A DNA stretch of 64,000 nucleotides. Source: Gracilinema caldarium (GTDB taxonomy: Bacteria; Spirochaetota; Spirochaetia; Treponematales; Breznakiellaceae). The stretch is taken from assembly GCF_029265695.1 (NCBI RefSeq), contig NZ_JAJUHW010000009.1:1-64000 (forward strand), in the 5' to 3' direction. A program made the translations under genes and the position numbers. Below, one piece after another: positions 31,462-34,515 of the stretch. The notes under the pieces were generated by a model that searched no databases, was not told where the DNA came from, and saw only the letters and a program-made list of their open reading frames with translations. The stretch's first letter is position 1. Each line of letters opens with the position of its first letter.

Positions 31462-31481
31462 GCGGTTTGAAACTGGTTTAA

Positions 31482-31511
31482 TTGACAGTTCTTTTTGGTC
31501 CTTATTATACT
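31482..31511 (+). promoter_or_regulatory. Sigma-70 promoter of the caspase/FGE gene
   Basis: Perfect TTGACA (31482-31487), 18-base spacer, TATACT (31506-31511), just after galU. Transcription would start near 31518 and give a leader of about 30 bases before the ATG at 31548 that opens the signal peptide. This supports a gene start at 31548 and not at the GTG at 31736. Confidence 0.7.
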
Positions 31512-31547
31512 CAATTTAAAACTACAATAATAATATTGAGGCTCCGT

Positions 31548-31706
31548 ATGCCTAGACAAAAAGGACTACTCATAAATCGATTTTTTTCGATTTTATATCT
31601 TGCCCTTGCGCTCAGTGTTCCGTCTTTGGCCAGAACACAGGGGCAAGCGGGACAAGCAAAGGAACCGGGACGACGGCCCCTACTACCACCGCTCCCGCGA
31701 CTGTAG
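31548..31706 (+). pseudogene. Signal-peptide start of the caspase/FGE gene, out of frame
   Basis: An ATG at 31548, placed correctly behind the promoter, opens a typical signal peptide (hydrophobic FFSILYLALALSVPSLA). This frame ends at 31706 in unrelated Pro/Leu/Arg codons. One frame over, the DNA from about 31640 reads a Gly/Thr/Ala/Pro linker (GTGTTAPTTTAPATVATPA) that runs straight into the caspase domain. One additional G in the run GGGG at 31640-31643 would join signal peptide, linker and caspase. So this is the true 5' end of the following gene, split by a one-base difference: mutation, switching tract or sequencing error. Confidence 0.75.
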
Positions 31707-31735
31707 CGACCCCCGCGACGACCCCGGGGCGCCGG

Positions 31736-34420
31736 GTGGCCCTGGTGATAGGCAACGGGGCCTATAAGGATAACCCCCTCCGTAACCCCACCAACGATGC
31801 GGACGACGTGTCGAAGGTCCTTAAGGACGCAGGCTTTGAGGTTACGGTTGTTAAAGATGCGGACCAGACCACCTTTGAAAAGGCGGTAAAGGATTTTTCA
31901 AGCCGACTTTCCGGGGCGGATACGGGGCTCTTTTACTACGCAGGCCACGGGGTACAGATTGAGGGGGTAAACTACCTTATCCCGGTGAGTCCCCGGCTTG
32001 ACAATGTGGCGGATGTAAAGCTCCGGGCCATGGCGGTGGACAGTGTCGTGGCCCGTATGGAACAGAGCGGCATAAAGACCGCCTTGGTGTTCCTGGATAG
32101 CTGCCGGGACAATCCCTTCCCTGGCGCTTCGCGCTCAACGAATAGGGGCCTTGCGGTGGTGCCCACACCTAAGACACGGAACAGCCTTATCGCCTACGCC
32201 ACAGCCCCGGGGGAGGTGGCGGCGGATGGGACGGGGCGCAACGGGGTCTTTTCTGCGGCCTTTATCGCCCAGGTGGCTATTCCCGGCCAGGAGCTTTCGG
32301 AGCTTATGCGGAAGGTGAGCGCCGATGTTGCGGCCGCTACGGGGGGTAAACAGAACCCCCGGGTCGACTTTGGTATGCAGGAGCCCTTTTGGTTTATAAG
32401 CCCCGATGAGATGGCTTTCCGGGCCGAGGCAGCCCTTAAGGCGAACCAGGAAGAAATAGCCCGGCTCGAAAAGGAGCTTGCCGAGCGGCAGGCAAGGATA
32501 AACGCGACCCGGGACGCCCAGGCCAAGCAGGCCCTGGAGGTGGAGCAGCAGCGCCAGGCGGCCCTGGCGGCGGCAAAAAAGCTAGAGACAGAGGGGCTCG
32601 CCCGGGAAGCGGAACGGCAGCGGAAACTTGCCGAGGAGGCAAACCGGGCTGCGGCGGAGCGGGCTGCGCTTGCTGCAGAGCAGGCCAAGCAGCAGGCGGT
32701 TTTAGCATCTATTGCGTCTTCCCGGCGGGCGGAGCTAGAAAAACTTGCCCGGGATGCGGAAAGCGACAACCCCGACGTGCTTATCGAGACCATTGAGCGG
32801 CTTGATAGGGTGCTTGCCGATGTGGCTAAGGAATACGCAAGTACCTGGAAGAGCATCGAGGCAAAGCTCCGGGAGGGCTACACGCCCCGGTTTGTGGCCC
32901 TTTCGGCTGCTAAGCCGGAGCTTTGGGAGACCGATGCGGAGTTTAGCGCCCGCATCAAAAAGGAAAGGACAAGCCTTGAGCGGGAGATGGAACAGGCCGT
33001 AGCTTCCCGCAAGGCGGAGCTTGAGGCGGAGCAAGTAAAGCAGACTGCTGCAATGCGTAAACAGTACGAAGACGCCCTGGCCCTCCTGGCTCGCAAAACC
33101 TGGGTGCTCCAGAGGCAGTCGGTGGGTTTACAAATCGGCGAGTTTGACCGGAATGAGCGCACCTGGCCCTTTACGGTAAGCTCTTTTGATCCAACTATTC
33201 CAATGGAGCCTCGCACCTTTGTTGTGAATCTTGCGAGTGCGCCTGATGTGCGGAAGGCGATTGTGGACCTGGACACGGCGGTCAAGGCTGGGGCCCTGGC
33301 GGGGCGCATTGAATGGGCCTTGAGGCGGAACCGGGACAAGGGCTGGTACGAGCTTGTGATACGGCGGGTATCGGTGGAAAACCTAACCACGAGCGCGACC
33401 GTCGCCGCATGGCAGGGGGAAGTTACAACTGCCTATTTTACTCCCGGAAAGCGCCAGAGCCCCAGCCTTGCCCGGGCTACGCTCAGGCTCACAAGCCCAG
33501 ATGCTGGGGGCCGCCTGTACCGGGATGGGGTAGACATGGGCCCCCTCCCCATAAGCCTAAGCTTACCAGCAGGTCCCTACGGGCTTGAAATTCGCTGGAG
33601 CGACAGAACAACGAGCATTTCCGGAGCTTTAGAAATCGGTGCAAATGTCTCGCGGAGTGTTGTAAAACCTTTACCCCTCATGCTCCCCGTCGCTGGCGGA
33701 AGTTTCGAAATGGGTTCAAATAATGAAGAAAACGATGAGCGCCCGGTCCACCGAGTAACGGTATCCTCCTTTTTTATGTCCGCCACGGAGGTAACCCAGG
33801 CCCAGTACAAGGAGGTGATGGGGATAAACCCAAGTAATTTTACAGGCGGAAGCGATGTCCCCATGCGGCCGGTAGAAAATGTGAGCTGGTATGACGCGGT
33901 TCTTTTTTGCAATAAGCTCAGTCAGAAGGAAGGCTATGAACCGGCCTACTATAGCGATGCAGATTATAAAAAGGTGTATACCGGGGGAGACGCGGTGTAC
34001 TGGAAGCGGAGCGCTAACGGCTATCGGCTCCCCACGGAGGCGGAATGGGAGTACGCGGCCCGGGGCGGCGCTCTGAGTAGGGGTTATCCCTATGCGGGGA
34101 GCGCCGCTGTCGATGAGGTTGCGTGGTATAGTAGTAATTCACGAAGCACCCGCCCCGTGGGAACCAAAAAGCCCAATAAACTAGGGCTCTATGATATGTC
34201 GGGGAATGTCTGGGAGTGGTGCTGGGACTGGTATGGGGGTTATGGCGCGGGCTCTGTAACGAATCCCGCGGGCCCGAGTTCTGGCACGAGCCGGGTTCTT
34301 CAGGGTGGAGGCTGGGGCTACGACGCGTCGGGCACGCGGGTCGCTGACCGGAGCAATAGTAGCCCGTCTATCAGCTACTACAACAGCGGGTTCCGGCTTG
34401 TTCGCCCCCAGTCCGAGTAG
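31736..34420 (+). CDS. Caspase-like (C14) protein with PEGA-like and FGE-sulfatase-fold domains
   Basis: Multidomain protein, 894 residues counted from GTG 31736. Residues 1-230 are a caspase-like peptidase with the catalytic pair His71 (FYYAGHGVQ) and Cys123 (FLDSCRDNPF). Residues 240-330 and 420-450 are Ala/Glu-rich coiled coil. Residues 580-640 (GRLYRDGVDMGPLPISLSLP) look like a PEGA surface-binding module. Residues 645-894 form a formylglycine-enzyme-type C-lectin fold (GGSFEMGSNNEENDERPVHR, YRLPTEAEWEYAARGG, GNVWEWCWDWYG) without the catalytic Cys pair, so probably a binding domain. The start is uncertain: no ribosome site precedes the GTG, and a signal peptide lies upstream out of frame. 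See the findings for the C-terminal variable-region pattern. Confidence 0.85.
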   Translation: MALVIGNGAYKDNPLRNPTNDADDVSKVLKDAGFEVTVVKDADQTTFEKAVKDFSSRLSGADTGLFYYAGHGVQIEGVNYLIPVSPRLDNVADVKLRAMAVDSVVARMEQSGIKTALVFLDSCRDNPFPGASRSTNRGLAVVPTPKTRNSLIAYATAPGEVAADGTGRNGVFSAAFIAQVAIPGQELSELMRKVSADVAAATGGKQNPRVDFGMQEPFWFISPDEMAFRAEAALKANQEEIARLEKELAERQARINATRDAQAKQALEVEQQRQAALAAAKKLETEGLAREAERQRKLAEEANRAAAERAALAAEQAKQQAVLASIASSRRAELEKLARDAESDNPDVLIETIERLDRVLADVAKEYASTWKSIEAKLREGYTPRFVALSAAKPELWETDAEFSARIKKERTSLEREMEQAVASRKAELEAEQVKQTAAMRKQYEDALALLARKTWVLQRQSVGLQIGEFDRNERTWPFTVSSFDPTIPMEPRTFVVNLASAPDVRKAIVDLDTAVKAGALAGRIEWALRRNRDKGWYELVIRRVSVENLTTSATVAAWQGEVTTAYFTPGKRQSPSLARATLRLTSPDAGGRLYRDGVDMGPLPISLSLPAGPYGLEIRWSDRTTSISGALEIGANVSRSVVKPLPLMLPVAGGSFEMGSNNEENDERPVHRVTVSSFFMSATEVTQAQYKEVMGINPSNFTGGSDVPMRPVENVSWYDAVLFCNKLSQKEGYEPAYYSDADYKKVYTGGDAVYWKRSANGYRLPTEAEWEYAARGGALSRGYPYAGSAAVDEVAWYSSNSRSTRPVGTKKPNKLGLYDMSGNVWEWCWDWYGGYGAGSVTNPAGPSSGTSRVLQGGGWGYDASGTRVADRSNSSPSISYYNSGFRLVRPQSE
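34295..34405 (+). other. Candidate variable region of a diversity-generating retroelement target
   Basis: The last 35 codons of the FGE-fold domain. The framework (GGGWGYDASGTRVADRSNSS through NSGFRLVR) matches the place where DGR variable regions end in FGE-fold proteins. Many exposed positions are NNC codons reachable from AAC by changes at A only (GGC, TAC, GAC, AGC, ATC, TAC, TAC, AAC, AGC), as adenine-directed mutagenesis would leave. No template repeat or reverse transcriptase is in the window, so this is a pattern-based inference. Confidence 0.4.
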
Positions 34421-34431
34421 GGCAGGCGGCC

Positions 34432-34445
34432 GCCCCGTGCGGGGC
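34432..34445. repeat. GC-rich hairpin just after the candidate variable region
   Basis: GCCCC (34432-34436), four-base loop GTGC, GGGGC (34441-34445), 11 bases after the stop of the FGE-fold gene. DGR target genes often carry a short hairpin or cruciform just downstream of the variable region that helps retrohoming. No T tract follows, so it is not a normal terminator. The stem is short, so the link is tentative. Confidence 0.4.
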
Positions 34446-34515
34446 AGTTATGATGCGCCGGGGTGCGCGGGCCTGCTTGTGCCGCACAAGAGCAACCGCG
34501 GCTTGTCAACTTAAC

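Follow-up and report, generated by a model that had tools for sequence, protein, structure and literature searches.

A caspase gene with a TvpA-type, variable-region-like 3' end in a spirochaete, probably an orphan target of diversity-generating retroelements

The locus described here raises the question of whether a spirochaete caspase gene ends in a segment once rewritten by a diversity-generating retroelement (DGR), and whether it could still be rewritten in its present genome. The gene lies in a stretch of 64,000 nucleotides (the window) that is part of contig 24 of a 3.04 Mb assembly in 88 contigs, 95.3% complete (G000). It was compared with three congeners (n=3; G001, G002 and G003), of which G001 is a single contig of 3.24 Mb (3,239,340-bp), and with 200 genomes of the same bacterial family that were surveyed for reverse transcriptase (RT) and template peptide. 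We favor the reading, at a probability of roughly 0.6, that this is an orphan, horizontally acquired variable-protein gene of the TvpA kind fused to a caspase and not demonstrably retargetable in this genome. The coding sequence and its domains were as follows:

31736..34420, + strand: caspase-FGE coding sequence, first standard start GTG 31736, 894 aa; the frame is open from 31556
31736..32371, + strand: Peptidase_C14 (caspase) domain, residues 1-212, including H71 and C123
32402..33106, + strand: long helical region, probably coiled-coil, residues 223-457 (AlphaFold2 model, modest confidence)
33476..33592, + strand: PEGA-like stretch below the Pfam cut-off
33674..34405, + strand: FGE / C-type-lectin domain of the TvpA type, residues 647-890

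By its sequence, the window protein carries a caspase-like protease domain (Pfam PF00656, 8e-39), as the original prediction had proposed, naming His71 and Cys123. Both residues (numbered from GTG 31736), which form the His-Cys dyad of C14 peptidases, were invariant across 24 aligned caspase-family proteins including 22 caspase-FGE proteins, and the nearest solved structure of this part was the MALT1 paracaspase. The AlphaFold2 model was usable for the caspase and the helical region and of low confidence at the variable end. A PEGA domain, which had also been proposed, did not hold up, since the corresponding stretch scored 17.1 bits and thus remained under Pfam's cut-off of 20.8. Among solved structures, the FGE part (Pfam PF03781, 6e-55) came closest to TvpA, the DGR variable protein of Treponema denticola (PDB 2Y3C, 1.9e-45, residues 653-889), while formylglycine-generating enzymes matched at only 3.6e-20. 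Judged by sequence, this is a C-type-lectin/FGE domain nearest to TvpA with a variable C-terminal segment. The only cysteines of the protein are 123, 725 and 829, and because all three lie outside the C-terminal segment, which has zero, the catalytic cysteine pair of formylglycine-generating enzymes is absent there, as expected for the predicted FGE-type C-lectin fold devoid of these residues. Another FGE-domain gene of the same genome (G000:C6:6948-7808) contains one in-frame TAG that was read through, and its end is not variable-region-like.

Closer examination of the last 35 codons centered on 11 positions that are AAC or AAT codons in the DGR templates of relatives (template-Asn positions) and on the elements that follow them:

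34280..34405, + strand: 3' end resembling a variable region, NNC/NNT at 11/11 template-Asn positions, GGGW shared with confirmed variable regions
34388..34411, + strand: 3' constant element resembling an IMH (mutagenic homing start), GGGTTCCGGCTTGTTCGCCCCCAG, 23/24 to G089
34432..34445, + strand: weak hairpin GCCCC[GTGC]GGGGC 3' of the stop, 5-bp stem with GTGC loop

The window codons at the template-Asn positions are GGC, TAC, GGC, GAC, AGC, AAT, AGT, ATC, TAC, TAC and AAC, all derivable from AAC or AAT, with nine ending as NNC. The excess of NNC codons noted earlier was confirmed at these sites (9/11 vs 7/24 elsewhere in the segment, p 0.005) but was weak over all 35 codons (16/35 vs a background of 33.5%, p 0.09); we therefore discarded the overall excess as evidence and regard only its placement at template-Asn sites as informative. 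Because a complete 11/11 set has a 16% chance given the amino acids of the window, even though the unconditional chance is about 0.001, this signature is supportive and short of decisive. Every one of the confirmed variable regions scored 11/11, and a conserved FGE gene found in the congeners scored 7-9. Pairwise identity among the 22 caspase-FGE proteins averaged 0.146 at the 11 sites, compared with 0.696 for the intervening framework and 0.624 for the remainder of the FGE domain; the respective values for seven copies of the conserved FGE gene were 0.95 at the same sites and 0.83 in the framework. In addition, the window has GGGW where the family has GGSW, corresponding to the AGC-to-GGC (A-to-G) change of four confirmed targets. 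The similarity of the window C-terminus to a DGR variable region, which had been predicted from the framework of the last 35 codons, is thus supported by TvpA as the nearest solved structure, by hypervariability at the template-Asn sites and by their uniform NNC/NNT third positions.

The element GGGTTCCGGCTTGTTCGCCCCCAG shared 23/24 bases with a template and confirmed DGR target of G089. Its FRLVRPQ codons are identical to those of this confirmed target in another genus, for which the chance among synonymous codons is 7e-4 in this one comparison, uncorrected for how many sequences were compared. The homing-site match extends through CAG and then departs from the GTTCTGC of most confirmed targets. 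At non-A positions, identity to the best known template was 0.72, which overlaps the range of ordinary FGE genes (up to 0.756), and close similarity of the window end to a known template was consequently rejected. Phage DGR targets are followed by a GC-rich hairpin with a 7-10 bp stem and a 4-nt GRNA loop (Guo et al., PMC3240598). No such structure was found downstream of the window gene: the short hairpin that the original prediction had likened to those of DGR targets does exist, but it has a 5-bp stem and GTGC loop, the region folds no better than shuffles (z -0.8), and it was rejected as evidence. A clear hairpin is also missing from several confirmed targets of the family. The non-A identity of 0.72, the 16% chance of the 11/11 signature, the short hairpin and the end of the homing match after CAG all count against the orphan-target reading.

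A rival explanation is ordinary divergence within the FGE family, in which normal mutation and selection for different ligands shaped the C-terminus and a DGR never acted on the window gene. The framework GG-W...R...P...GFR is a property of the whole superfamily, the Pfam FGE model runs through the final position of the segment, the best ordinary FGE genes come at least as close to known templates as the window end does, and no template was found in the genome (see below). On the other hand, the variation is confined to codons that read AAC/AAT in templates, and copies of the genus's conserved FGE gene are 95% identical at these sites. A confirmed target shares the codons of the 3' constant stretch, and sister caspase-FGE genes are proven targets as detailed in the following paragraph. 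We consider ordinary divergence unlikely on balance, with about one chance in four left to it.

Within the same bacterial family, sequence comparison identified caspase-FGE genes as genuine DGR targets, both in cis and across contigs. A related RT was detected in 52/200 genomes and a template-peptide match in 131/200, along with many FGE genes with variable-region-like ends. The example in cis (G176) is a caspase-FGE gene with a signal peptide; downstream of it come an HRDC gene and then the RT, and all differences between its variable region and the template (19/19) fall at template A. An HRDC accessory gene also overlaps the RT in T. denticola (PMC4891356). In G119, the template is located on contig 94 (L189:2186) and the caspase-FGE variable region on contig 143 (L289:3430) of the same genome, with 13/13 differences at template A and non-A differences at 0/109 positions (chance 4e-10). 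Since template and target sit on different contigs here, targeting from a distance does occur in the family. G053 exhibited more cross-contig template-target matches, which were less pure. The 11/11 signature was present in 15/17 of the caspase-FGE genes sampled vs 44/83 other FGE genes (p 0.006), although some of these 83 are truncated at locus ends and may hide a caspase. Viral contigs contained only distant relatives (<=45% identity).

Many caspase-domain genes per genome, several of them in tandem, were observed in G079, G034, G177 and G182; one contig (G079:C22, L279) contained at least five. G167 harbored 33 variable-region-like FGE matches, and the RT search listed no hit there.

Comparison with the congeners placed the window gene in a one-gene insertion that also contains a promoter. 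The elements upstream of the coding sequence and the insertion itself were as follows:

31469..34488 (about), no strand: one-gene insertion of ~3.0 kb (BLAST synteny and junction alignment)
31482..31511, + strand: sigma-70-like promoter TTGACA-18-TATACT within the inserted segment, 11/12 matches
31548..31706, + strand: short ORF with a signal-peptide-like N-terminus (MPRQKGLLINRFFSILYLALALSVPSLA), out of the caspase frame (ORF reading and comparison with relatives)

The segment is missing from the syntenic galU / M18-aminopeptidase interval of G003, the flanks of which are about 95% identical, as well as from that of G002; in both, galU adjoins the aminopeptidase gene with no caspase gene between them. 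G001 lacks the window gene as well, and because three congener genomes are without it, a gain in this genome appears more likely than parallel loss, though their lack of the gene could stem from loss instead. Neither long inverted or direct repeats nor a recombinase were found at the insertion ends, and with only an 8-bp match there, transposon-like ends or a target duplication were rejected.

The upstream region does not match the proposed secreted protein starting at 31548. ATG 31548 is preceded by the promoter and a plausible purine-rich ribosome site, but its frame stops at 31704, and the signal peptide it encodes is out of frame with the caspase. In full-length relatives, the signal peptide directly precedes the first caspase strand in one frame; no signal peptide in frame with the caspase was found in this assembly, where the signal-peptide ORF uses another frame. 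We placed the frame change between about 31632 and 31703, and it reflects either an assembly error or a real change within 31632-31703. Programmed slippage joining the signal peptide to the caspase was rejected, as the overlap has no slippery heptamer in the zero frame. Because the two ORFs differ in frame, the term secreted rests on the signal peptides of relatives, by analogy with which the window protein would be secreted as well.

Taken at face value, the broken upstream frame suggests that the gene may not be expressed as a secreted protein, and it could denote a decaying gene, that is a recently broken acquisition in which the frame change leaves the caspase cut off from its promoter, start codon and signal peptide. 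The good promoter and purine-rich stretch in front of a frame that ends so early, the overlap lacking a slippery heptamer and the single frame shared by signal peptide and caspase in relatives would all fit such decay. However, no stop interrupts the remaining 894 codons and the catalytic residues are all in place, a single indel in a draft assembly may simply be erroneous, and GTG 31736 could start a cytosolic form. Decay of the gene is accordingly a doubtful proposition, which we put on a level with ordinary divergence.

Neither RT nor template repeat lies within the 64,000 nucleotides of the window, in agreement with the original prediction, and extending the search to the genome did not reveal a DGR that serves this gene. 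A near copy of the variable region beside a DGR RT, expected if the predicted retargeting were at work, was sought across the genome; no template was found, and the single RT serves a prophage. Both a degenerate pattern (3 mismatches, both halves) and a template-peptide search of the 95.3% complete assembly returned the gene itself only. The only RT of G000 is located on contig 74 and belongs to a prophage DGR with Avd (NF033474), template, Mtd-like target and RT, in which 11/11 template-target differences are at A. Contig 74 represents a Mu-like prophage with transposase, tape measure and major head genes (G000:C74, loci L003, L009, L011 and L012), and its DGR is complete and of the BPP-1 type. 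This DGR was rejected as a source of the window variable region, its template being unrelated. The three congeners, including the single-contig G001, had neither an RT match nor a template-peptide match. The suggestion of retargeting from a distance therefore stands in so far as cross-contig targeting occurs in a relative (G119), but an active DGR acting on the window gene is unsupported, with no template found and the only RT in a prophage DGR. That the gene is an active target, still rewritten remotely by a template and a second RT hidden in the ~5% missing from the 88-contig assembly, is improbable: cross-contig targeting in G119, the incomplete assembly and the pure NNC/NNT third positions of the variable codons would allow for it, but the insertion brought the target gene alone, an RT is missing from every congener including the 3.24 Mb single-contig genome, and the hairpin and homing-site end deviate from confirmed targets.

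According to the orphan-target reading, which we prefer, the C-terminus would have been diversified by adenine-directed mutagenic homing in an ancestral lineage, and we infer such past diversification for this exact window gene. The gene would then have entered the genome without the retroelement, which would leave its binding site fixed today; arrival of the target by itself would account for the lack of a template in the genome. When intact, the protein would expose its C-type-lectin domain to the periplasm or the exterior, and the variable residues would determine which ligand this domain binds. Ligand binding might, via the helical linker, bring caspase domains together or activate them, and the caspase domain could then cut a nearby protein as its putative substrate. 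By analogy with other caspase-DGR and conflict systems, for which such a division has been proposed (PMC7517822, PMC10907252), recognition most likely falls to the lectin domain and output to the caspase. Secretion in the relatives suggests periplasmic or extracellular ligands instead of intracellular ones.

Several known systems share parts of this architecture. Like the window gene, TvpA and its paralogues in T. denticola (PDB 2Y3C; PMC4891356) have an FGE/C-type-lectin domain with a C-terminal variable segment. T. denticola isolates without the DGR core of RT and template keep their target genes, and remote targets exist (PMC4891356). The T. denticola targets are FGE-domain proteins and mostly lipoproteins (PMC4891356), whereas the domain in the window follows a caspase and a long helical linker. 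Cyanobacterial orthocaspase variable proteins, which include remote targets, likewise carry a caspase-like peptidase ahead of a DGR-diversified C-type-lectin domain, but are mostly predicted to be cytosolic (PMC7517822), unlike the spirochaete proteins with their signal peptides. Ternary/STAND conflict systems similarly combine an FGE-type diversified sensor with caspase-like or other effectors (PMC7159879, PMC10907252, PMC8195603); these consist of several genes, include NTPases and adaptors and operate inside the cell, whereas the window gene is a stand-alone insertion. The metacaspase-FGE-sulfatase architecture has the same domain pair as the window gene, and the part of its description considered here lists the caspase-FGE pair in 33/671 prokaryotic sequences in 2012 and treats the FGE domain as a modifying enzyme with no DGR link (PMC3501461). 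The BPP-1-type phage DGR (Mtd, Avd, TR, RT) is present in the same genome on the contig 74 prophage, with template and target unrelated in sequence to the window gene. In the open-access literature searched, outside of which most subscription papers fall, we found no specific earlier report of caspase targets of DGRs in spirochaetes.

The combination of a caspase with a DGR-diversified binding domain was known before from cyanobacteria, in mostly cytosolic form, and the relatives analyzed here add spirochaete versions with signal peptides, including a cross-contig template-target match without a mismatch outside adenines. The window gene contributes a clean target without a retroelement, with the corresponding site empty in a congener of 95% identity, and it can therefore be asked whether specificities made by DGRs spread as frozen single genes. 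We tentatively propose, as an idea somewhat less probable than not, that this spirochaete family maintains secreted caspase receptors as a repertoire, with binding sites rewritten by DGRs in cis and remotely, and that single receptor genes also move between genomes without the retroelement as frozen specificities. If true, this would constitute a bacterial analogue of a receptor-gene repertoire whose output is an extracellular protease.
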